This document shows positions 1 through 24,271 of a stretch of DNA of 24,271 bases, piece after piece; the stretch's first letter is position 1, and each line of letters begins with the position of its first letter. The position numbers and the translations under genes were made by a program. The notes under the pieces are model-generated. The model was not told where the DNA came from, did not search any database, and saw only the letters and a list, made by a program, of their open reading frames with translations. Source of the stretch: Fragilaria crotonensis (lineage: Eukaryota; Bacillariophyta; Fragilariophyceae; Fragilariales; Fragilariaceae); the NCBI GenBank assembly GCA_022925895.1, contig JAKSYS010000802.1, positions 1 through 24,271 of the forward strand. The letters run 5' to 3'.

Positions 1-140
1 TATACGCTGACAGTTGCGCCGCTCACGCGCCGTTATTCAGTCGTAAACTGGATTGTCGAAAGGATTGGTTGACTACGACCGACCAAAAGACTCACAATGA
101 ATACTCGTTCGCCCCCCTCGAACGTGTCTGCTGTTCGATC

Positions 141-3100
141 ATGGAAGACTCTAGCAGCACGTCTGGGAAACGAGCCATCCGAGACGAAACCGATGATGCC
201 CAGGCTGATGGTCCAAAAAGAAGTTTGACGTACAGTCTCTCAAAGATTGACATGAACAGAATAACTAAGCTTTCGCTCGAAGCCATTTTTCATCCCAAGT
301 TTGAGAATGAAAATCGAGAATTGCAGTCCATTCGAAAGGAAATGAAGGATAAGGTGAGCAATCATGCAGGATATTTGGAAGTGTCACTCAAGCACTCGGG
401 TAATCTGTTGTTATGGAGCGGGGGTCAACGCTACTTCAGCAAGAACTCAACCAACAACGCATTTACCTATGTCGGAGAGGTCTTGCTGCGTCAGCATTTT
501 CACCGTTCATGGTACATGTGTCCAGAGAGTAATAGTGGCGATGCTGCTTATCAAGAGTGCAGTCATTACGTCGAGAAACATCGCTTGACGCTGGCGTTTG
601 AATCAGTTACGTCAGTCCTCGGCCATCATGGAGATCTTCCAAAGAAGGATTTTTTGATTTTGACCGCGGTAGCTCAGAAGGCAACGCAACGATTCTTCAC
701 TACTCTTGAAATTCTGGAGCTGGCGCATCGTTTTCGACTTCCTCACAACGATGTGTGGGTCTATTCAACATCTGAGTCTGTGGACATGCTCTTTCACCTC
801 TACGATTCGACACGCGAAACTGGACTGGCAGAAGACACGGTGGCGGCTCTCAGCGCATCTGCTAACGCGCATGTATCAAGCATGTATCCTCACGCTCACT
901 TTCAGGGAAACATTCTCGAAGGTATCGTGATTCGATACGTTGCATACAAGGAGGGCGAACAAGAGCGACAAATCAAACTCCTTCAAAAACGTGAACGTGT
1001 TGCGCTTGACATTCTTCGGAAGGTTCCGATCGACAGACCCATGTGCTTTGAGCTGTCCATAAACAGTGACTCCAAGCTTCTTTCGCTTGATATCCGCCAA
1101 GCTTTTCGTAATTGCGTCGCACACGGATTCGACAACGATTTGATTGTCCGGTTGGGCGATGCTGTCTCAAATGTCTTGCACGACGCAGATACCTATCGAA
1201 GGACCACCACGAAACACGTTCCCACCGATTGGAGCATTCCAGAGCTGGCCAAGACACTTCTCGAAAAGTCTGGCATTGATCAAGAGACCGTTCGGATCGC
1301 CAAATTAATCGTTAAGTTGGACGAGCAGAACGCGACGGTTCGCTATGGCGTCGTCCGGGAAGATGATCGGCGATGGTTGTGTACTCTTCATGTGTTGCAC
1401 GATAAGACCTTCAGTAAGTTTCAAAAGGAGATGCAGCCTGGCGATATGCATCTGTTCCGTGGGTTTTCCATTGAGTTGGGACTCGACGATATTGATGGCG
1501 ACGCCACCATGACGTCTGCATCCGACGATACCGAACGCATGCATGTTGATGACTCAGGAGATGCCCGTATCATGCTGAAAATGAAGTTCCTTCCATACAT
1601 GGTTCGCACATTCTGCTGTCGCAATGGTCTGATTATTTTAGCCAAAGATGGACCGTCGGGCTTTGCGAATTATACGTGGAAGCAAATGACATCGTGGGGT
1701 ATATCCGACCAAGCCAAGGCCATCTGGCAACGTTTCTTTCGTGCATGGGGCGAATACGCTCATGATTGTATCCATAACGTTCCTCGGGATTATATTGACA
1801 AGACGTTGCCGCCCATGAGAGCCGATTTTTACTTGAATCATTTGGAACACTTCGTCCCACTTTACGAGAACGGTACTATCAAATGCAGCGGCGACAGAGA
1901 CTCACGCGTTGCCGCATTCCGAGGAATTGTGGTGGTGGTTGCTATTTTAAAAGATACAGCAAAGCAAGTCGCAAAGTTCGTCTCGCAAGAGCTCGGTGGA
2001 GTCCAGATGTTTGACTCAATCGAGGATCGCAAAGCGTTTCAAGCGGCCATCGGAGCCGCGAGAGGTGGTGGCCTAGTTGTCAGTGCCACGATCAGCGACG
2101 TTCAGCACATGCGCAGCCGAATTGCAGACAAATTTGATGTCATCCTCTTCGGTTGTGACGAGAAGTCCATTGAGGCTTGTGCACATTCCAATGAGAAGCA
2201 ATTGATTGGAACGCCCGATCCCGACGAGAAGTCGATTGACACTTCTGTGTCCTCCTATCAGAAAAAATTGATGGGATTGGCAAGTCGTTGGCAGAGGCTT
2301 CATTGTGCCGCTATGGTCATCCACGTTACGCCGTCATCACTGCGGGAAGCTCATGATGGCGTTCTACCCTTTCAACCAAGCTACGAATTGAAGAAAGCAG
2401 TGGTGCAGCTTGAGAACCTGTCGCGTGAAAGTCAAGCTAAGGACGTCAGACAAGGACTTCTAGTTTTCTTTCCGGGGATACCAGGTTGCGGCAAATCGAC
2501 CTTAAGCGGCGCGGCATCGCAACGATTGTTGATTAACTTTCTTGAGACGTTTCAGGTCGAAGAACAGCCGCAGTATCCACGTCGAGAACTTATTGTTGCG
2601 GTTGGTGACCGTGTGAAGGGGAAATACTGGAAGCAGGTAGAGAAGCTGCGAAACAAACAACCAGCTAGTGTATTGATTGCCGACAAGAATGCTCCTCGGT
2701 CTGTCTGGTCTGCGGTCGGGGTCTCTGCTGGAAACGGTCTAGTTGTGCCAGTGCTACCTGACAGCAGCGCTCTGCACGACGCGAATTGTAGGAACTCGGG
2801 ATTCGAAGGGACACCTGGATCTCAAGGTCTCTCACTTCTATCCATTCTCTTTACAATATCTCGCTGTTTGCATGGCTCGTGTGATGGCGCGTCCTGCCAA
2901 ATCACATGAAGGGGGTCTCGACTGTCTCGTAGACCAAGTTTGCTTAGTGGTTACATCGTTCTTCGGCTTTTACCGTTTTGTCAGTGCTGACAACTTCATG
3001 GATTCTGTTCAGTCAATGGTGGCGAAGTCAGGCTCGATGTGCTCCAGTAGACCGATCGAAGTGCCTTTCTTTTGCAGAGACGACGTACCTGATCTTCCAG

Positions 3101-3867
3101 AAGAATTGTCGGATGTGCTGACCGAAGCTCTACAGCTTCAATATGGTCTCGAGCTCGCGCATAAGAACTCCACAGCCCCGCAAGACAAAAATGCTGCTCT
3201 CCAAGCGCTCGAAGGCAGGCTACGTGGTATGATAAAAAAACATGGGGCTTTGCTTCTCGGGATGACGGCTAGTGAAGCCGAGACACGGTCTGCTTTTGTT
3301 GATCAACTTATTGCTCACGTCAAGTCTTTGCACGACGAGCAAAGCCAGGAGCCAACATCTGTCAAGTTACCTTTAATCAGACTTGTTGCGATTGACGTGT
3401 GCGTGGAAAGGCTCTTTGACGAGCTCAAAGCAGTCGCGTGTGTGGAGAATGACTTCTCGCGAGCCCTCGATTCAAGTGGGCTTGACCTGGATCATGCCCA
3501 ATTCGGTCCACAGGCTGGTTTTGAACGACTACCACATGTGACACTCGCACATCCTTCCAATCTATCTCAGCATGAGATCCGATCGAAGTTTGACCAGCTC
3601 CTGGGGAAAACGGTCAGCCTTTCCGTCACGGGAATGCTTTGGAGTGAGCGCATAGCAGCGCTCGCCGTCAAAGTTGATGCAACAAGTGGTGATGGCATGA
3701 CTGTTCCGGAAAGTTGCAATGATTTTGTCCATATCACACTTTGGAGGAAAGGGGTCCAAGCAGTTGAGTCGAATCACCTTCCTGCACTTGTGGCCAAAGG
3801 TGATGCCTTTGAGGTTTTTTTCGAGGCTCCATTTGTAATTGAGGGAACTCTTTCCTATTGGACATGA
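141..3867 (+). CDS. Plant-type tRNA ligase (ligase-kinase-cyclic phosphodiesterase), one frame break
   Basis: It should heal and seal tRNA exon halves after intron removal, by opening the 2',3'-cyclic phosphate, phosphorylating the 5' end and ligating. The N-terminal adenylyltransferase carries the nucleotidyl lysine motif KHSG (Lys codon 390-392, residue 84). It is followed by a conserved SxELVT-like segment near 590-620 and an MKFLPYMVRTF segment near 1580. A kinase P-loop GIPGCGKST lies at 2475-2501, followed by GDRVKGKYW and ADKNAP. The C-terminal phosphodiesterase has both HxT motifs, HVTLAH (3535) and HITLW (3730). The architecture and many segments match plant RNL. At about 1,240 codons it is longer than plant RNL (about 1,100), largely through an extra ligase-kinase linker at about 1915-2300. 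The ATG at 141 is chosen because the frame upstream has only a TTG at 69. The frame changes once between about 2775 and 2800 (apparent one-base insertion), yet homology continues across it, so sequencing error is more likely than gene loss. Confidence 0.88.
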
Positions 3868-13019: not shown

Positions 13020-13028
13020 TGGACGGAA
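13020..13028 (+). repeat. Left target-site duplication TGGACGGAA
   Basis: Nine bases identical to 20045-20053 and directly abutting the inverted repeats of the 7 kb element. Nine bases is the usual duplication size for Mutator-like transposons. Confidence 0.88.
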
Positions 13029-13103
13029 GGAAATGCCTAATTCGCTAACGATTAATGCGCTATCAAAAACGCTAAACCAATAAGAATCTGCCGCGACGTC
13101 ATC
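13029..13103 (+). repeat. Left terminal inverted repeat
   Basis: Reads GGAAATGCCTAATTCGCTAAC and continues through AATGCGCTATCAAA to GACGTCATC. It aligns with the reverse complement of 19971-20044 over the full length, with TGCCTAAT, CGCTAAC, AATGCGCTATCAAA, CGCTAA, CCAAT and ACGTCATC shared. The word CGCTA occurs three times and may be a transposase-binding motif. Confidence 0.88.
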
Positions 13104-13350
13104 GGGGAAAGGGGCCAAAACAGTCATCTGATGATGTCATAATCATATACATGTATCGTTATACATATTCAAATGGCACGCCGGCATAACTTATTCGATA
13201 TTCGCGCCCAACTTTGAAATTGAATGTACTTGAAATTGAACGGCTGCACCATTTTCAAATACGAGAGTGCATTCGTGAAAGTTAACAACTCTCACTCTCA
13301 CTCTCACTATTAACCAGCACGACATCAGCACCTCTTACCCACTGCAAGCC
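13104..13350. promoter_or_regulatory. Transposase leader and presumed promoter
   Basis: An AT-rich stretch between the left inverted repeat and the transposase ATG, with no open frame of note. A CTCACTCTCACTCTCACT pyrimidine microsatellite lies at about 13289-13306, some 45 bases before the ATG, a usual place for a 5' leader. The assignment rests on position only. Confidence 0.4.
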
Positions 13351-16300
13351 ATGGAAATCACTCCTATAGAGCAAGAAGAATGCACGTCAACCGCAACTGA
13401 CATCTTCTATTCTCAAGCAGAGAAGGAGAATTTACATCTTATCAAGAAGGAATTTGACGGAGAGTTCCCTGTCGGAGCTGTGTTTGCAACAAGGAGGGAC
13501 CTGATCGATGCAATGCGTCAAAAGGCAACGAAGTTTGGATTCTTTATTGTTGACCGCGGAATGGCAGCTTGTTGTTCTGAAACAACATCAAGGGATGCCA
13601 GGATGCACGAAAACAGCTAGGACGGAATTGGCTGCTCAGAGAAATGGAAAAACCTATATGCCGCGAAAATCTGCAAGATCAAAGTGTGGGTGTGAATTCA
13701 AGATTAACTTACCGGGATGAAGGGCAGTGAACTGGGAGGAGTTAGAATATCGCATGTGCAATTTATGCACGGAAAGGGGTGTAAGCCTTCAGGGGAACAA
13801 TTCAAGGCAGCATGGACTAGTGGTGGACATGCATCAAGGCACCTTGCCCGCACTCAGAATCTTAAGCTGCACACCATTGTCCAGCTTCTTGCAAGTGAAC
13901 AGAAGCCAAGTGCCAGAATGATGAGAGGTTTGCTTCGCGATATGTTGCCAAAAGATTTTGACGTGTCCAGCAAATTCATAAATAATGTGAAGACCAAGGT
14001 CAAGTTGAAGCTGATGAATGGTGACTTTGATCTTCTCCTGTCGGAAGGAAGAGTCTCAGAGGGAGATGTGGAGTTCATTTTAAGTCCTAGTGACAATCTA
14101 CCTCCAGAGTATCTGTCTGTTGCACAGGACATCGCAAATGAGACATTAAAGGAGGCACTCTCTGATCCCGGAAGTATGTGCTTGGTGGTTCAATACCTCT
14201 GTCGACTGCATCAAGAGGATCCATCTTTTCTCTTTGACATTCAACGTGATCAGAATGATACAATGGTTGGAATTTGCTGGCAAACAGCCACAATGAGGTT
14301 TGACTGGGACACCTGCGCCTCCTCGATTGCATTAGACGGTATGAAACGCCAGCTAAACAGCTTTTGTTACCCGTACATTGCTGTCACTGGTATTGATGGA
14401 TATGGCCACATGGTTGTGTGTGCCGAAGCCATTGTGATATCTGAGCGGATCGAGGCTTACGCATGGCTGCTTCGGTGCTGCAGTAACTTTTCATGCAAAC
14501 GAAAGCTAGACAGCATTCATGCTATCTTTGGTGATGGATTAGTAACTTGCGACAGTCTGCTCGCATCCCTTGGCATTCAAGATTCATGTTCCCTCCTTGA
14601 TGATGTGCACCATTTATTGTCCCCTGAGTGCGGTACATGGTTTAAACAATTTGGAGCCAGCAGATGGAACCACTATGGTGGATTGCTGCGATCTTTGGTT
14701 TTTGAGTCCTACTCCTTGGATGCCTACGAGACTATAAGGTCCAAGATTCTAGCAATGATGGATTGTCGTGGTGAGCCTCAAAGTCTCTTAAACTATTTCA
14801 ACAACGTCATTCATGTTGCAAGGAGAAGATTTGCACGCTACTCTGTCAATGCAATACCCTGTAACGAAGAACGTCTTGGATCTTCAATTGCGGAGGCTAA
14901 CCATTCATCTTATGTTGCTCGCATCGGGGGTGGTAGCTGGGATGATCCTGCAATGCAGGTTAAGGACTGCATCCTTCGCATGCAAGAGCTCGCCAATAAG
15001 AGGGCAAGTATCCGAGACCAGTACAGGCGACAGAGTGCAGCAAGCAGTCACACCACATGCGATAAAACCCTTGCCCTTATGCTTGTTAAACTGTCAAAGC
15101 GCGGATTCAAGATCTGCAAAGAAGAATACAAGAAATCATCAGGATACTACTGCTCACTGCTGAGTGGTGGCGGAGAACAAAAGGAAGTGCGACGGATTGG
15201 GGATTCATCCCAAAGGGCTCGCCTTGTCAATGGATCTAAGTGCTCATGCAATGTCTTCGTTGCATATCAGATTCAATGTCGACATCTCTTTGCATTTCAT
15301 GGTGAAGAATTCAAGCTTGGGCTCGTTGATTCCAAGTTCCACGCCCAGCCATTGTCAGTATCGTCCCCGAATCCAGATTACACCACTATCCTGTCAGCTT
15401 GGTCTGTAACCAGGGACCCTTACATTGGCAGTCTCGGCGATAAGTTGTTCTGTCGGCAGACTGCTCCTGTGCTGTCAAGCCCACCCAGAAGACCTACAAG
15501 CCTGCCGGCAGAGAGATGGATGCGAAGACAATGATCCTTTCCAAGACTATCATGATGCTGGGAAGGAGATGCGATGTGCATTTGGAAAGAACCCGACCTT
15601 GAGAGTATCGAACACGATTCTTGCATTCTCGTCAACAACACAGCAACTTCAGTTCTACCGGTAGTCAGGAAGAGGAATGTGACCTTCCGATTTTACTGAT
15701 GTTGCGAACAGTGTTGCAAATCTAGCACTAAGTCTTCCAAATGAAGATGCAAGAATGGAATGCCTAGGTGTCTTGGTTCGGATGAGAGATGCCTTGAGTT
15801 TGTCCGCCAGTGGCCAGCAGCAAACTTCTTCCGTTCCATTTCTTGGATTTATGTCGTCTGCTGAAGAATTTCTTGGGGCATTCGGGCCGAATGCCGAATC
15901 TCGGAAAGAAGGCATATTTGCTGAACACCACAACAGTAATTTTGAGATGCAGCGACACAATATCGGTAAGGTTCGGCAGAAGCGACTTAAATCACTGAAC
16001 GAGAGGAAAGCACACGGAGCAAAAAGCAGCAGACCCTTGTCGATGGAACTCTCTCAAAACCTTGTTCCTCATTTGGCTGATGCACGTAGCAGGCAGGCAC
16101 AATGTTCGTATTGTGGTTCCTGTCAGCACACGATCAAGCGGTGCTCTAAGATGGACAAGGTGGCTTTTGTTGGGAAGAAGAACAGTGCCTCCTGGAATCG
16201 ATGGTATCGTACGTTGGGGAATCAAAGTCACCACGATGTAGTTGTGCCCAATGCTGGGTGCACCTTGAAACTTAATCGAGAGCTCCAACAAGACATTCCA

Positions 16301-16626
16301 TCTCCCTCTCAGATTATTCGTCATCTGTCCATTAAAGCAGTCTTCTATTCTTCAGAGGCTATCGAGTTTATGTCGCGACCTACCAGCATATACAGATCCA
16401 GAATCTGCAGAACACCCACATTCCATCTCCGGACAACAATATTGTTGAACTCCAGCTTATTGAGCGCGGTGGAAACTTTGTTGTAAAGCAACATGAAACT
16501 GCTTGCAGGGTCGACAGGGAAGTTAATACCACTTTTTATACACAAGCAAAGACAGTTCAGAAATGGATGGAGAAAGCATCCAGCGATTCACACTTGTTTG
16601 TTTACGTCAAAGCAAAGGAAACATAG
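13351..16626 (+). CDS. Mutator-like transposase with SWIM zinc finger and zinc knuckle
   Basis: It should bind the inverted repeats and cut and rejoin the element. The N terminus has a FAR1/WRKY-GCM1-like finger: FPVGAVFATRRDLIDAMR, then RSKCGCEFKI near 13674 and SHVQFMHGKGC near 13754. The catalytic core follows: Asp in ALDG (14335), TGIDGYGHMVVCAEA, Asp in IFGDG (14533), and a candidate Glu in IAEANHSSY (14893). A SWIM finger C-x-C-x9-C-x-H is at 15241-15285, and a CCHC zinc knuckle C-x2-C-x4-H-x4-C at 16103-16144. The coding line changes frame near 13600, 13716, 15530-15680 and 16365, and ends in frame 1 at the TAG 16624-16626 after VKAKET. The ATG at 13351 starts the first conserved stretch. 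It is either an eroded copy or one with sequencing errors. Confidence 0.82.
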
Positions 16627-16834
16627 GTCCTTGAAGAGTGCCGTCCAACAAGAAAGCGAAGGCATATGGAACGAACCACCAAAGCGTATGACATTCCCTT
16701 GGTTCTCCACATTTGGTTCCGCTTGGACAAGCAACTGCAACAGATTTAATAGTGAGAGCCTATATGTACCAACTTAAAGGAGCAGCGATAGCCACCACCT
16801 TCTTCCACCACGTTAAAAACACATTGCGTCCGTA

Positions 16835-18586
16835 CTATGCATTCGTTGCACTCCGCTCCGCCATATCCCGCCGCAACGATATGGTTCTTCCAGCCTGAAG
16901 GACACTCTCCTTGGCGACACTGAATGAACCAAAGCACAAGTTTGGCCCATTTGTTTGCCCTGTAGTGTGCAATGATGTACAGTGCCGAAGCACTCGTCCA
17001 TCCCAACTGATAGCAACACCATGTGACAGTTTCACAGCCAGGCCCAAAAAACGATTCCCATTCCCATCAACACCCACAACATTTGGCATTAGGAAGAACC
17101 AATTTTTTGCTGCCCCAGGAATTGTCTCAGTCCACACTGCAAAGCCCTGCGAGGTATCACCACAATCAAAATGGGATGCATTGCCCAGGTTGACACTCAT
17201 GTCAACCGAATACCCAACACAGCCAAAATGACCATCACCCCCATTGGTGACACGGGAAGCAGGCCACTATCTGCCTCAAGTCCTGGATGACGGTGAGGAC
17301 ATCAGGAAAGCAATGCCGACCCACAAGTGCCAGCGACCGAACAAATTCGCGCAACACCTCATCAGGAACCAAAGCATTTGTTGTGTAACTGCTCGTTGAC
17401 ACGCCGTCCTTGTGTACCCGAGTTCCAATGGGGTGCATGGTCCCAACATCCCCCCTCCCATTCCTCGCACCGCCAACGGCACGTTCACGGGCAACAACCG
17501 CATTGTGGGAGTTGATGTTATCCAATGCTCTGCCCACCAACTGCCGACCCCCATTGTCAAGAAGTGACAGAGAGTTTCTGATAAGAATCGCAGTCTTCCT
17601 GCCTTTCATGTCACACCGATCAGGAGATCCACCATAACATCAAAATTGGGTGACACACGGGTCCACAATGCAGCACGTAGACGGCACACAAAGTAGTGGC
17701 ATCCAACTGCATAGTGACCCCACCATAGCGCACAGAGTTCGATCCGGCTAGCCGGAGGTTGTACAAAGGCTGCCCGATCAGCAGCCGACCACTCGCATGG
17801 ACTTCCATCGAAGACATCCGGAGGCAAAGCCGGTCCGTCAGCATCGTGCAGCTGCCTAGCACACCGAATTAATCGATGCTGGTGCACCTCAATATGCGAT
17901 CTAACTGTCAGCGACACCCTCCATGCAGAACTACGATGATGCAGGCGTTTCACATAACCTCCTGCCCGAATTCACTTCCACCACTAGTCGTAACCAACTC
18001 AAGTCCAGTGGAATAAGGGTTTGCACGACCAACTGCATTACTCCGACGCTCCCGAGCACAGTAGAAGGCCCCTGCCGACGGAATGATTGCGATCACTGTT
18101 CTGAAACTCCCGTCTGCACAGTCTGCAATTTCTTCAGGTCCAGAACATCCAACAGGAACAACAGTCCCTGCCCGTATGGCATGTTCCCTCACAACAGGGA
18201 CATATGAGCAATTCAAGATAACATCCATCACTATAAAATTGTGATGGAATGGGGTTGTGACCTCTGATTGATAGAACACATCCTCAAGCAGCCCAATTGT
18301 TCGATGTGGAAGCCAGGCAACTCAGCACCCCAGGAAACCATGCATATAAGCCATGGAGAGCACCAAATCCAACGTACGGGGTCATGCATAGCATAGGTTC
18401 ACCAGCATGCAATGCACGCGCACCCAGTTCAGTCACATATTGAGAGAAGGACTCCCAAACCCGGCTCTGAAGTCTCAGGCAAACACTTGAGTAACACAGC
18501 CAAAACCTGGGCCTGAGATGGACATGATTTACGAGCTCTCCTGACCCGTGGTAACACCCTGGCACCCTACTCGCACCCTGTGACAT
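16835..18586 (-). CDS. Transposon passenger gene, putative 2OG-Fe(II) oxygenase-like protein
   Basis: A minus-strand coding line facing the transposase gene inside the same inverted repeats. It runs from the ATG at 18586 to the stop at 16835-16837, with frame changes near 18310, 17950, 17610 and 17250. The first two thirds (VGCSGPEEIADCADGSFRTV, CALWWGHYAVGCHYF and others) match nothing I recognise. The last third reads as a double-stranded beta helix: YSVDMSVNLGNASHFDCGD with an HxD pair (His codon 17173-17171, Asp 17167-17165), then NWFFLMPNVVGV, FLGLAVKLSHG and AISWDGRVLRHCTS. The distal His (16984-16982) is 63 residues after the first. HxD...H with a 'G..ISWDGR..H' strand is the 2OG-Fe(II) oxygenase pattern, seen for example in TET/JBP DNA-base hydroxylases. 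The basic residue that normally binds 2-oxoglutarate is not clear; the nearest Lys is about 23 residues on. Fold assignment is inference, and the substrate is unknown. Confidence 0.55.
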
Positions 18587-18811
18587 CTGTGCCGCACTAA
18601 CAAGCCTTGGTGTGTCCCAAGATTAAGGATCGATGAGCGACAAGTTTGTTTGCCCACTGGCGCTCAGGAGATAGTTGCTGGCATTCACGGGAAACTCCCC
18701 ACTCCCTCCATACGTTCATTGCCCCATCCATCCTTCCACAAACTCCAGCCACCGTATCCTTCAATGAGAAAATTTCTCAAGTATCTTGTTGATCAGAAGG
18801 CAACGTCGTTA
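18587..18811. promoter_or_regulatory. Presumed promoter of the oxygenase-like gene
   Basis: The 225 bases between the ATG of the minus-strand passenger gene and the tandem array. No promoter motif was identified. A plus-strand open frame that starts at 18650 runs into the repeat array and has no protein-like features. Confidence 0.3.
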
Positions 18812-19590
18812 CAACAATTTGAGCAAGTCAGAAAGAAAGCTGCGGGTCGAAACCACTGTATGGCAGTGACAACAGCAACGTTCAGTCGTCGTTGATCACA
18901 ATTGATGATAACGCAGTAACCCAATGATGACGTCCAGCAGCAGTCAAGAGCGTAACCGATTTGCGTCCAACAATTTGCGCAACTCAGAAAGAAAGCTGCA
19001 GGTCGAAACCACTGTATGGCAGTGACGACAGCAATGTTCAGTCGTCGTTGATCACAATCTAGGACAGCACAGTAGCCTCAACGATGACGTCCAGCACAGC
19101 AGCAGAGGCGTAACTGATTTGCGTCCAACAATTTGCACAACTCAGAAAGAAAGCTGCAGGTCGAAACCACTGTATGGCAGTGACGACAGCAACGTTCAGT
19201 CGTCGTTGATCACAATCTAGGACAGCACAGTAACCCCAACGATGACGTCAGCACAGCAGCAGAGCGTAACCGATTTGTGTCCAACAATTTGCGCAACTCA
19301 GAAAGAAAGCTGCAGGTCGAAACCACTGTATGGCAGTGACGACAGCAATGTTCAGTCGTCGTTGATCAAAATCGAGGACAACGCAGCAGTAAGCCCAATG
19401 ATGATGTCTAGCACGGGACTGCGACAGAGAGGGTAGCTGATTTCCGTCCAACAATTCACACCGCTCGTGTTCAACGATTTGCTCAAGTCAGAAAAAAGCT
19501 GCGGGCGAAACCACTGTATGGCAGTGACGACAGCAACGTTCAGTCGTCGTTGATCAAAATCGAAGACAACCTCAATGATCCCCTGGCAGA
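18812..19590 (+). repeat. Five tandem copies of a ~157-base subterminal repeat
   Basis: Copies begin with CAACAATT(T) at 18812, 18968, 19126, 19282 and 19448, giving periods of 156, 158, 156 and 166. Each holds AAGCTGC[AG]GG, CGAAACCACTGTATGGCAGTG and a GTCGTCGTTGATCA block. CACTG-TATGG-CAGTG can fold as a 5-bp hairpin, and GACGAC...GTCGTC around AACGTT as a second, in every full copy. The last copy carries an extra ~24 bases. The array is present only near the right end. Confidence 0.92.
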
Positions 19591-19970
19591 TAGTAGTCAA
19601 TGGGGATTGTGTTGTCTGACACCAACACAAATCAAAACGGAGCAATGAGAACAACACAAGCAGCAGCATCAACAGTAAAAATATTATAATGCTGCAAAAT
19701 GGTGGCAAAATAAGTGCAACATTGTACTCCGAGTACCTTGCAGTACTCTGAGTACGAACGTATCTACAGCCGCTTCCAGAATTTCATGCCTCCGTACATA
19801 GCAGTACAATTGTAAGGCATGCCAAGAGTTTGGGTTCGAAATTTTGGAAACCGGGCCAGCGCCAATCTTGCCATGTAAGAGAGATACACATGAATTTTCT
19901 ATATGAAGACGTATGTTTCTTTTTCATTTAAAGGCGGGGTGCAAAAATTCATTGTGAGGAGACTCGACAT
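19591..19970. other. Gene-free right subterminal region of the transposon
   Basis: No coding stretch and no further copy of the 157-base repeat. A few GTAC words (CTCCGAGTACC and CTCTGAGTACG near 19726-19757) resemble the host spacers. The region leads into the right inverted repeat. Confidence 0.6.
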
Positions 19971-20044
19971 GATGACGTTGCAGCGGAATATGATTGGGTT
20001 AGCGCTTTGATAGCGCATTAGTTGTTAGCGCATTAGGCACTCTC
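19971..20044 (-). repeat. Right terminal inverted repeat
   Basis: The reverse complement reads GAGAGTGCCTAATGCGCTAAC and onward to AACGTCATC, matching the left repeat with scattered differences and small gaps. TAGCGC occurs three times (about 19999, 20011 and 20026). It abuts the second copy of the 9-base target duplication. Confidence 0.88.
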
Positions 20045-20053
20045 TGGACGGAA
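20045..20053 (+). repeat. Right target-site duplication TGGACGGAA
   Basis: A perfect match to 13020-13028, immediately outside the right inverted repeat. It defines the insertion event and the outer edge of the element. Confidence 0.88.
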
Positions 20054-20461: not shown

Positions 20462-20606
20462 GAAATAAAAGTGAGTAGAGGTTATCTACTGTCGCAATCT
20501 ATACGAGTATTCGCAAAGAGATACTGTAGGGCTACTACAGTACGGTGATTTAACACGTTTATAAACGATCAGTTGAAATCCAAGGTAAAAGAGTTGTACG
20601 GAAATC

Positions 20607-22405
20607 ATGGCAGTTGAAGATTCCGATTCCAACTTTGGAACCACTGTTCGTGCGTTCGCTTTCAACGGCGATGATACGAAGTTCAGGTCGTGGGAGGGCA
20701 AAACTCTCGCGCTCGCCAGTTCGAAGGGCTTCTTGCTCGCGCTCACCAGGGCAGAGGTAACGCCGGGTCTAACGGTCGAGCAGTACGAGTATGGTGAAGT
20801 GGAGGAGCCGGTCAGGCTCGCCACGGGAGCACCTGCTGAAACTGCAGGTGTCGCAGGGGTTACTGCCAGGCTTTGGAAAAATAATACTGCAGTAGAAGTA
20901 CACCGTATACTGCAGTGTAGTATACGGTTTACTGCAGCTCTGTGAGCCGTATACCGTAATACTGCAGCTCGGCTCGCAGTAGTATTACGGTTCACTGCAG
21001 CTCCGACGAAATACGGTGATACTGCAGCTCCGTGCTGTAGTATACTGTAGCCCCACGAACAATACTACGGTATTTGCAGTATTTCGAATACTGCTGCATG
21101 ACTTCTATACGACATTTATCGTGTAAGCAGATCGAGTACCACTATCGTATCAAACATCAACCTACAGAATGCTGGAACTCGGAGTACAAACTCCGTACTG
21201 TCATTTGGTAGTTGTTCAGTGCGCCAGTTTTACGGTATGTTACTGCAGCTCCTCTTAGAAGTAGTATCAGTATATACTGCAGCCATGGATACTGGTGGCT
21301 CTGCGCTCACCAGGGCAGAGGTGTACTGCTGCTGGGACACACTGCAGCAGTACTGTACTGCAGCTCCGTAAAATGTAAATACTGGACATGCTGAAACTAT
21401 TTTGTCCAAAGCCTGGTTGCGGCACCACCAGTACGAACCCGTGCAACACCTCAGTGGAGAACCGGAAGTACTTGGCGCGCGGCTGCGTGGACTTACTTAG
21501 TGGCGAGCTGTACCGACAAGGCCTACGCGCTCATCGAACGGGCAGACGGAGACCCCTTCAAGGCTTGGACCATCCTACAGGAAAAGTACTGCGCCACGGA
21601 CGCGGAGGAAAACTACCTGAGCTGTCGGAGGCATTCGGGAAGTGTAAGTTGAGCGAGACGAAGCAAGACCCGAACTTTGGTTCAATGATTTGGACCATTT
21701 GAATATGAGGATTGCCCGTATCAACAAGAAGTACAGGCTCGATGACCTTCAGATGAAAAGTCACATCATGACGTCGATGTCCAGTGGCTACGATTCCGTC
21801 GTGGTCAAGTATCGTGGTGAACTAGCGGAGACACCGCTTGTGAAGTTGCGCAAGGAAATTGGGCTCCAGTACAAGACACTACTCAAGACTACGAAGAACA
21901 AGTCGGAGTCGGCGCTCGTGGCAATGTAAACAAACACCCATATAAAGTTCAAGGGCACGTGTCGCAACTGCGGCAAAATCGGTCACAAAGCAAACGAATG
22001 TCGGTCCGCGAAGAGTACCGCGGAAAACCGATTCTACCAAAACGCCTGTTGACAAAAAATGTCACCTGTTTCAATTGTCAAGAGAAGGGGCATTATGCAA
22101 ACAAGTGCCCAAAACCAAAGAAGGATAAAGCAGATAATGACATGGCTATGTTCGTTGGTCTTTCACGAATTGAAGTTGACGTTGAAGCCGTGGAGACACC
22201 CAAGGTCGTGGTTAACGATAGTATCGATTTTACCCCTGATGACTTCTTCGATGACTGGCGCTGGGGCGATGACTCTTTGAGCGATGACTTCAACTCCGAT
22301 GACGATCTCGGAACCTTCACCGAATTCTTTGAACACGACTTGTTGGGCGACGACGATGCTACCATGGTGGATGTCTCGAGACCCAGGAAACTATGGAGTT
22401 TGTAA
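20607..22405 (+). pseudogene. Copia gag, interrupted
   Basis: Capsid/nucleocapsid precursor. The ATG at 20607 starts a normal gag N terminus (VRAFAFNGDDTKFRSWEGKT) that runs to LWKNN near 20878. About 600 bases of CTGCAG-rich sequence then interrupt it. Gag resumes at 21485 with AWTYLVASCTDKAYALIERA, changes frame near 21610 and near 21670, and continues through INKKYRLDDLQMKSHIMTSM. A TAA at 21927-21929 stands where CAA would read on. Beyond it come two CCHC knuckles, CRNCGKIGHKANEC (about 21961) and CFNCQEKGHYANKC (about 22069), with another frame change between them, then an acidic stretch to the stop at 22405. No intact gag can be made from this copy. Confidence 0.85.
20879..21484. repeat. 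CTGCAG-rich palindromic insertion inside gag
   Basis: ACTGCAGCTC or a close variant occurs at least six times, at about 20932, 20962, 20992, 21019, 21242 and 21358. Long inverted arms are present, for example CCGTATACT...AGTATACGG near 20901-20926. A 20-base stretch of gag (20739-20758) reappears exactly at 21303-21322. Gag homology resumes at 21485. The left and right edges are approximate. Confidence 0.75.
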
Positions 22406-22409
22406 ATGT

Positions 22410-23660
22410 CAGTTTGATTACGGAGGAATTCGTTGGGACTTCGCTGCACTCAACGGCATTGAAGAATGGCTTTTGGACTCAGGTGCTACTTGCGGCGTTA
22501 CGTATGACAAATCGAAGATGTCAAACATGCGGCATCAGACAAAATGATTACGATTGGCAATGGCGCTCAGGTCGCAACTCTCGGACAGGAACGGTGCATC
22601 TAGTCAACAATCGTGGAAACCAAGTAACTCTTCATGACGTCTACTATGCACCAAAGTTCACTAAACACATCGTGAGCCTTCGCAAGTTGATTGACGATGA
22701 CTGGACATTGAATGTTGCCGACAAAACGGAATTTGTCTTAGTCGACCCAGCAACGGCGTCCACTATGTGCTTTGAGCGAAACGACAACGACCAACTGTAC
22801 TACCTGACTGGGACTCGTGTCCCAACAGCGAACGACATTGAAGCGGTACACAGCCTCACAACAAGCCGGTAACTCTAGATATTAATATAGCGCACGGCTT
22901 GCTCGGTCACCCGGACACTCGCACGGTGAAGGCGATGGCGGTGAGACAGAACTGGACATTGACTGGGACGGTACAGCCCTGTGGCTCATGTGCACTTGCA
23001 AAGCACGCGCCAAGGCGGTCCCAAAGACTACAATGACCAAAGCCAAACTCCCGGAGAGACTCTTTCTGGACATTTCGGGCCCTTCAGTGACTCCCTCAAC
23101 TCGAACTGGTATTGGCTTCGCATTGTGGATGACAACACGCGGTTTTGCTGGGACAGTTTCTTCCACGCAAGAGTGGTATACACGTCCCGTTGGAGGCCCT
23201 TCTCATCGCGAACAAGGCTGCTGGTAAACCGTGCAAGTACCTTCGCTGCGACAACGCGGGTGAGAACGAGGCCTATGTGCAGAAACTGTGTGCCGAACAC
23301 GATATTGCCCTCGAGATGACCGCTCCGAACACCCCCAAATGAATGGCGTGGTGGAACGGAGCTTCGCTACATGGGATCGCGCCTTCGCGACTATGTATTG
23401 TGCACGATTCACGTTAGAATCGCAGGGTTTGTTATGGCCTGAGGCCATTAACACGATTACCAAGCTTGGTAACACGCTCCCACGCACCGGGGACGTTTTG
23501 GACCCCTACACTGCCTGGCACGGTGAAGATGTCAGGCCCAATCGCATTTGGATTATCTTCAGCCGTTTGGGAGAATCGCCTACATCACGGATCGCACTAA
23601 GATCAAGGCTAAGGCTGACGTCAGGGCTTCGAAATGTGTGTTCGTCGGGTATGCGACGAT
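22410..23660 (+). pseudogene. Copia pol, protease and integrase part
   Basis: The aspartic protease motif LDSGAT has its Asp codon at 22476-22478. A pre-integrase segment follows (TLHDVYYAPKFTKHIVSLRK near 22637). The integrase has a zinc-binding H-x4-H and C-x2-C arrangement (His 22893 and 22908, Cys 22980 and 22989). Its core has LFLDISGP near 23060, a second Asp in RCDNAGEN near 23249, and Glu in GVVERSFATWDRAFA near 23349. These are the DD-E residues. Frames change near 22540, 22985, 23090, 23145 and 23340, so no complete polyprotein is encoded. Confidence 0.85.
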
Positions 23661-24271
23661 CACTCCGGTGACACGTACAGTACAAGTTCTACAACCCTAC
23701 GACGAAACATACCATACTGTCCCGTGATGTCCACCAATGGATGGAATGGCACGGACGTATCACGGCTACTGATGATTTGGCACTGTTTGACGAATTAGAT
23801 AGATTAAAGACGGATTCAGTCATTTTGCCTGCCACCTCGACGGACATTCCCATTTTGTCTGACACTGACGGTTCGGACTGACGATCTCTGGGATCTCCGC
23901 CTCGACGCCCGCCGGCACGGATACAGGACTACCAGTTGAAGATGCTCTTCGTCCTGCGCGGAGGAATTTGGCTCCGGCTTTCGGTTCGGGTGCTGTCACT
24001 CGAGCACGAGCCCTCGCGTCAACGAGTACCTTCGCCGATGTACACAGGAACGAAGACAATTTGGAAGCGTCGGTTGCTACCATAAGCGCGGAGGAATTGT
24101 CCTCGCTACTGGTTATGAACGCCTTACTTCAATCGGATCCTCAACTTGGTGTACCAAAGAACTACAAGGCTCTACTTAAGCTCAATGACCCAAAGTGGAC
24201 AACTTCTATGCACGGTGAGCTGGAAAACTTCCTCAAGCGCGACGCATGGGAATTCTTACCACGCAGCGAGT
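23661..24271 (+). pseudogene. Copia pol, linker and start of reverse transcriptase, truncated by window
   Basis: After integrase come a LSRDVHQWMEWHGR segment (near 23715) and a poorly conserved linker with a TGA at 23879-23881. The frame open at the window end reads LGVPKNYKALLKLNDPKWTT, then HGELENFLKRDAWEF, which is the entry to the copia reverse-transcriptase domain. The catalytic residues of RT lie beyond the window. Confidence 0.75.

Follow-up and report, generated by a model that had tools for sequence, protein, structure and literature searches.

The window analysed in this study, 24,271 nucleotides of the Fragilaria crotonensis genome (contig C782 of a searched assembly of 62.1 Mb and 881 contigs), contains a Mutator-like element of 7,016 bp (13029-20044) that is bounded by inverted repeats and exact 9-bp duplications (Table 1). 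A minus-strand gene for a predicted TET-like dioxygenase lies inside the inverted repeats and is convergent with the transposase-like frame at 13717-15534; both points had been made in a first-pass annotation of the sequence and are borne out by the repeats, which bracket 13029-20044, and by the frame layout. The further frames located 3' of the transposase correspond to a single 435-aa open frame in copy L002, and a Pfam search of these frames returned nothing near the cut-off. The ~156-bp tandem repeats at 18794-19570 are possibly a promoter region of the dioxygenase gene.

Table 1. Features of the Mutator-like element and of its dioxygenase gene, in window coordinates.
Feature	Position	Strand	Remarks
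Left target-site duplication, 9 bp	13020..13028	.	Identical to 20045-20053
Left terminal inverted repeat, ~75 bp	13029..13103	+	Matches reverse complement of right end
Mutator-like transposase frames	13351..15534 (13351-13620, 13717-15534)	+	Weak MULE and SWIM matches
Further frames 3' of transposase	15755..16777	+	Cysteine/histidine cluster, by eye
Divergent TET-like dioxygenase gene (putative); frame broken here	16835..18731	-	Homologous segments frame by frame
Lys of FxAAK-type motif (CMD1 Arg418 position, spacing in short-loop members)	16910..16912	-	K in 28/28
Distal His, RHCTS motif	16982..16984	-	H in 32/32 rows
Trp at +13 of first His (CMD1 Trp358 position, counted)	17132..17134	-	W in 31/33
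Asp at +5 of first His (CMD1 Asp350 position, counted)	17156..17158	-	D in 33/33
HxD, predicted iron-binding His and Asp	17165..17173	-	Conserved in 33/33 rows
Five tandem copies, ~156-bp unit	18794..19570	.	Between dioxygenase start and right end
Right terminal inverted repeat	19970..20044	-	Pairs with left repeat
Right target-site duplication, 9 bp	20045..20053	.	Identical to left one

The hallmark of Mutator-like elements, terminal inverted repeats combined with target duplications of ~9 bp, was present at the window site and on contig C232. The left element end is common to the copies on C232, C724, and C88, and the C232 copy is flanked by its own, different 9-bp duplication, so that such duplications were seen at two independent sites; the C724 copy, of which only the left end was recovered, has yet another left flank. 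The C88 copy has both flanks, and the C659 copy the right flank, as in the window; because these flanks are common, C782, C88, and C659 are taken to carry one insertion on haplotype or duplicate contigs. The 9-mer of the target duplication occurs once more within the window, on the opposite strand. Domain matches of the window transposase were weak and stayed under the Pfam cut-off (MULE, E 7.5e-4, with 20.3 and 23.8 bits against a cut-off of 27.6; SWIM, E 3.5e-3). In related carriers on C592 and C20, MULE scored well over the cut-off, as it did for the transposase adjoining the relative L017 (E 4.8e-12). With this L017 match and the 9-bp duplications of the window, the suggested pairing of the dioxygenase gene with a SWIM-type, Mutator-like transposase proved to be real.

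The predicted iron-binding HxD was found where it had been described (H codon 17173-17171, D codon 17167-17165), with NWFFLMPN and GVAISWDGRVLRH following it; the distal His, whose codon begins at 16984, occupies exactly position +63 relative to the first His. The gene is longer than the 16835-18586 previously given, running from a first ATG at ~18731, placed by comparison with copy L002, to a stop at 16835, and the window copy is broken into several frames. Neither the window copy nor any of its four closest copies (98 percent identical) reads through. Across these five copies, 43 indels were counted versus 10 substituted columns, with 41 of the 43 breaking the frame and 29 located at runs of one letter. 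Because the indels far outnumber the substitutions and many fall at one-letter runs, long-read assembly error is favored over decay; the window frame is probably broken mostly by assembly indels, and we infer that the organism quite possibly has an intact gene.

The CpG observed/expected ratio was 0.72 in the window element and 0.94 to 1.09 in four flanking stretches, a difference that would fit past methylation; CpG depletion was nevertheless dropped as a methylation sign, being too variable among loci L001-L044 (0.66 to 1.12). The lowest ratio of the loci computed, 0.41, belongs to L048 (C137:75400-79000), beside a Plavaka-type carrier. Elsewhere in the window, broken frames at 20600-24000 resemble by eye a copia-type retroelement (CCHC zinc knuckle, pol-like stretches), and the two long frames that overlap at 69-3867 and contain a P-loop motif may represent a single host enzyme interrupted by an indel of the assembly; a Pfam search with the first of these two frames gave nothing above the cut-off.

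The putative dioxygenase family and its carriers

The catalytic part of a related copy served as query for a search of the assembly, which reported 160 matches; 150 of its 333 candidates were scored, and the site set consists of the 146 matches listed after four more were omitted as second pieces of the same place. At least 146 family sites were thus placed in the 62-Mb assembly with haplotype duplicates counted, and independent insertions are fewer than sites because of the haplotype and duplicate contigs that the assembly contains. Among the matches listed, 30 relatives (own count) have open frames between 700 and 1494 aa long. An alignment was built from 35 stretches of this genome, the rows of which are not independent since several are near copies of one another. 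In it, HxD was conserved in 33/33 rows reaching that motif and the His of RHCTS in 32/32, such that homologues keep the HxD...H residues first noted in the window and chance does not account for the motif; WDGR and the next Arg were likewise found in 32/32 rows. By comparison, the His of an SHG motif 50 residues after the first His was H in only 27/32 rows. The dN/dS ratio ranged from 0.066 to 0.18 in 8 of 11 pairs (the other three gave no value), with synonymous change near saturation in several pairs; ratios this far below 1 indicate a protein under purifying selection. In L018, L029, L031, L032, and L041, all of which keep the iron triad, an N, D, or Y stands in place of the SHG His, and the three members with D form one clade. 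Apart from this family, the genome was found to encode silicon transporters (E down to 4e-193), including three tandem silicon-transporter domains in a single open frame of 1456 aa at G000:C97:29749-33762.

Carriers were sought as transposase matches within 6.5 kb of a family site. With Pfam only, 31 of the 146 sites were near Plavaka (2.8 expected) and 26 near MULE (3.3 expected). When homologues of another Plavaka-type transposase were included, 55 of 146 sites were near Plavaka, with ~5 expected at random, an expectation that assumes an even spread, which transposons lack, yet MULE was near Plavaka in only 1 of 108 cases. The counts of 55 and 26 were made with those Plavaka and MULE matches whose contigs have family sites, together with 70 of 92 homologue matches, second pieces omitted. 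No site (0/146) was near both transposases, and a chance link to transposons was rejected on the observed versus expected proximity. The transposase is on the opposite strand at 79 of the 81 carrier-assigned sites: Plavaka neighbors are convergent at the 3' side in 54 of 55 cases, and MULE neighbors occupy the opposite strand in 25 of 26, with a convergent layout in 10 and a divergent one in 15.

At 65 of the 146 sites, neither transposase was found by these searches. This number is an upper bound for carrier-less sites because manual assignment was possible for eight, namely C137:70898 and C76 (L013 type of Plavaka), C121, C487, and C30:107331 (by the same type), and C659:141674, C724, and C88 (window-type copies). 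The PF18759 Plavaka domain scored over the cut-off in L016 and L018, the L013-type transposase is linked to the Plavaka of L016 (phmmer 3.2e-33), and the C487 transposase resembles the L013 type by eye. One Plavaka-type unit was delimited at C487:19650-29312, where inverted ends of 31 nt, terminating in CATCA..TGATG and accompanied by a duplicated AT, enclose a transposase, a dioxygenase, and a third gene. Such a third long frame is located upstream of the dioxygenase and on the opposite strand in L050 and L053 (C121 and C487), and by eye in L016, L022, and L023 as well. Some Mutator-like carriers, with a second layout of such elements, also encode a Ulp1-type (C48) protease (L014:5924-7999, L006:3048-3872), which in L014 shares its frame with a weak MuDR DNA-binding match. 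At L019:5893-7998 (C490), the dioxygenase copy adjoins a DEAD-box helicase frame, with no recognised transposase.

The history of these associations was examined in a tree of 31 catalytic domains, 21 of them labelled by carrier. L013 was labelled as Plavaka via its L016-linked transposase, and L006 and L010 as MULE from sister copies on C20, C313, and C579 that lie near MULE matches, while C193 and C166 are themselves not near MULE. With these labels, MULE carriers branch among Plavaka carriers rather than apart from them, which requires three switches, two of them forced by well-supported branches. The gene therefore appears, from these sequence relationships, to have changed carriers at least two or three times.

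Predicted fold and active site

Sequence searches gave no lead to the nature of the protein. PF12851 (Tet_JBP) had 0 matches genome-wide, and control genomes likewise had none over the cut-off, so that this search was without a positive control; Pfam searches with the window frames, full relatives, and 30 catalytic domains returned nothing relevant. Since no score exceeds the curated cut-off, the family is not filed under PF12851 and, unlike the members of Tet_JBP, escapes detection by that model. The best hits of profile searches against the PDB had E-values of 0.54 and 0.0069, neither being an oxygenase. A profile comparison with TET2 had a probability of 1 percent; the same comparison aligned SHG...RHCTS with THG...HATT, with one gap.

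The first-pass annotation had proposed a double-stranded beta-helix dioxygenase of the kind that includes TET/JBP, and such a fold is indeed predicted, for a Plavaka-borne relative rather than for the window copy. The AlphaFold model of this member (654 aa, 35 sequences), whose catalytic part is 54 percent identical to that of the window-type copy L002, had a mean pLDDT of 81.7 and a pTM of 0.87. In a Foldseek search with the model, the first 15 chains were all from the TET family, from TET2 (2.5e-8) to CcTet (7.6e-5), followed by FTO. VIA Z-scores were 17.1 for TET2 (291 residues), 14.7 for NgTET1, 14.6 for CMD1 (279 residues), 14.3 for CcTet, and about 11 for FTO and ALKBH3. Structural identity was 13-15 percent for CMD1 chains, 9-11 percent for TET2 and CcTet, and 6-7 percent for NgTET1, and ALKBH3 reached 12-13 percent over fewer residues. 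The model thus has a predicted double-stranded beta-helix for which TET enzymes are clearly the best matches, placing the family in the TET/JBP fold group. With TET2 and NgTET1 the modeled protein would share the fold and the iron triad; the distal His motif is HATT in TET2 and HCTS here.

In a gapless comparison, the family stretch GVAIRLSHGVTISWDGRVIRHCTS pairs with a 24-letter TET2 stretch, its letters confirmed, that holds the iron-ligand His, which we take to be His1881. This match may be read as homology, though sequence statistics alone are insufficient for it. The SHG His, whose spacing of 50 from the first His is as in NgTET1, was tried as the iron ligand and dropped: five of 32 rows have D, N, or Y in its place, in contrast to the invariant RHCTS His; the model has six strands after HxD, with RHCTS preceding the fifth; and the TET2 residue presumed to be His1881 pairs with the RHCTS His in the gapless match.

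Among the structural matches, CMD1 is the vitamin-C-dependent 5mC glyceryl transferase of Chlamydomonas. In its published description (PMC7854593), Asp350 of CMD1 reads N4 of 5mC, as does its NgTET1 counterpart, and its side chain disfavors T, A, and G by docking; Trp358 fills the 2OG pocket and blocks 2OG; and His249 and Phe245 are essential. The published CMD1 positions (PMC7854593) were matched to the family by counted offsets and secondary structure, not by superposed coordinates. Counted in this way, the Asp350 position (+5 of the first His) is D in 33/33 rows, the Trp358 position (+13) W in 31/33, the Phe371 position (+26) F in 28/33, and the Thr337 position (-8) S in 33/33. The Thr399 position (+2 of the distal His) is T in 32/32 rows, and the Arg418 position (+21 of the distal His) K in 28/28, with a spacing of exactly 21 in 8 of the 28. 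The positions of Arg244 and Tyr270, which are 26 apart in both CMD1 and the query, are R in 34/34 and Y in 30/33.

The 2OG-binding strand-VIII Arg (TET2 Arg1896) was looked for at positions 607-611, as placed by spacing and predicted strands, and no Arg occurs there in 29-30 rows; these positions hold V/L/I/C, Y/F, G, T/S/I/N/V, and F. At the Trp358 and Phe371 positions TET2 has Val and His (sequence verified), the latter presumably being His1416. In comparison with TET2, the family has Trp for Val at +13 and Phe for His at the strand-IV position, and lacks the strand-VIII Arg. At the Asp350 position, TET2 has Asn1387 (PMC7854593). By these sequence comparisons, the active site looks more like that of CMD1 than that of TET2.

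From the model and the conserved residues, the safe reading would be a TET-fold enzyme acting on 5mC-type bases, and the bold reading a co-substrate other than 2OG. In line with the latter, it is possible, though tentatively so, that the enzyme is CMD1-like, using vitamin C or another non-2OG co-substrate to conjugate a group to 5mC and so mask the methyl mark. The predicted fold and most counted active-site positions are common to both, Asp350 and Trp358 included, the 607-611 stretch is free of Arg, and structural identity is highest with the CMD1 chains. Against this, TET2 outscores CMD1 structurally, and an identity nearly as high is reached by ALKBH3, which is unlikely to be the closest relative. 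TET2 also has the Thr that follows the distal His at +2, the positions of Ser335 and Val342 hold D and N in the family, and those of His249 and Phe245, counted from the invariant R421, fall on D426 and variable residues, so that by spacing neither has a counterpart. The matching itself rests on counting rather than coordinates, and another basic residue (R577 or R580) could bind 2OG.

Proposed role and relation to known systems

Combined, these results make it probable that the family consists of very divergent TET/JBP base oxygenases that serve Mutator-like elements as a second gene, alter the 5mC of the element against silencing, and have been exchanged between two transposon superfamilies. 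A methylated cytosine in the DNA of the element itself would be flipped out by the enzyme and its methyl group then converted, either by hydroxylation or by CMD1-like conjugation; the element could thereby escape methylation-based silencing or be marked differently. The exchange between two unrelated superfamilies is proposed to have occurred because such an enzyme helps any carrier. The genome contains 13 matches to the DNA cytosine methyltransferase domain (PF00145), some of them pieces of one gene. Relief or masking of silencing has been put forward for the fungal cases as well, likewise as a proposal ahead of experimental validation (PMC12730594). It is rather doubtful that the process goes as far as a CMD1-like enzyme of two unrelated superfamilies building a bulky group onto the element's own 5mC by means of a metabolite such as vitamin C in place of 2-oxoglutarate, which would cloak the methyl mark from the silencing machinery of the host.

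A TET-fold base oxygenase with a different substrate, such as 6mA, thymine, or RNA, would break the link to 5mC silencing. CcTet, a fungal enzyme near the transposon-encoded ones, also acts on 6mA (PMC12730594), and FTO and ALKBH3 are the next structural matches after the TET family; with the 5mC-reading Asp at +5 invariant, a different substrate is considered unlikely. A function in transposition itself, e.g., in recognition of the ends rather than in escape from silencing, might explain why the gene is kept by two transposase superfamilies and nearly always on the strand opposite to the transposase. However, the ends and duplications of the carriers differ (9 bp for the window element, 2 bp for C487), which makes one specific cutting role unlikely to suit both, and a co-occurrence count over all Pfam matches found the gene near only 31 of 91 Plavaka and 28 of 108 MULE matches, leaving this function quite improbable. 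That the gene is a degraded remnant is even harder to believe, as the broken frames of the window copy and its four closest copies have an indel pattern that points to assembly error, and the 30 listed relatives are open at lengths up to 1494 aa with dN/dS far below 1. A base oxygenase that would counter silencing through 5mC is retained as the preferred explanation.

TET/JBP genes in fungal DNA transposons were reportedly described by Iyer et al. in 2014. In a more recent survey (Kojima 2025, PMC12730594), TET/JBP genes are cargo of fungal DNA transposons of many superfamilies, including Plavaka, and are divided into types PU, AG, and PE. The diatom family is similar to these systems in its TET-fold cargo, its exchange between superfamilies, and its Plavaka carriers, and the ends and 2-bp duplication of C487:19650-29312 resemble those of the TET-bearing PlavakaB of fungi (PMC12730594). 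The systems differ in the host, a fungus there and a diatom here, and in the Mutator-like carriers, which the available part of the survey does not list (PMC12730594). The PE type has HxE, whereas the family here has HxD with D in 33/33 rows, and the AG type with CcTet is marked by Gly (or Ser) at +5 together with an Asp at +11 (PMC12730594), whereas the family has D at +5 in 33/33 and S/A/T at +11. Set apart from PE and CcTet by these hallmarks, the diatom family may represent a fourth type of TET-fold enzyme on transposons, one outside the fungi. CMD1 differs in another respect: its description is that of a gene belonging to the host and taking part in the regulation of photosynthesis, whereas the family here is transposon cargo.

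Accessory genes of Mutator-like elements offer a second comparison. The available part of the survey names MuDR only for other cargo, and anti-silencing protein genes of plant Vandal elements and SET histone methyltransferase genes are given on Mutator-like elements (PMC12730594). Like the dioxygenase, these genes and the Ulp1-type protease are second genes, some acting against silencing, but none encodes an oxygenase. In the open-licence literature, no diatom or Mutator-like carriers of TET-type genes were found, and the survey does not contain the word diatom (PMC12730594).

Overall, on the preferred reading, TET-type enzymes carried by transposons would occur beyond fungi, in a diatom, and on Mutator-like elements as well. 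Because the family was missed by the sequence searches used, such genes have probably been overlooked elsewhere. If the CMD1-like reading is true, a new or rare DNA base would be expected in diatoms, and if that base is a bulky group that cloaks the methyl mark, it would amount to a hypermodified base encoded by transposons and give phage DNA hypermodification its eukaryotic counterpart. With at least 146 sites and two carrier superfamilies, diatoms would provide a test bed for whether transposons use base-modifying enzymes of their own to defeat DNA methylation.
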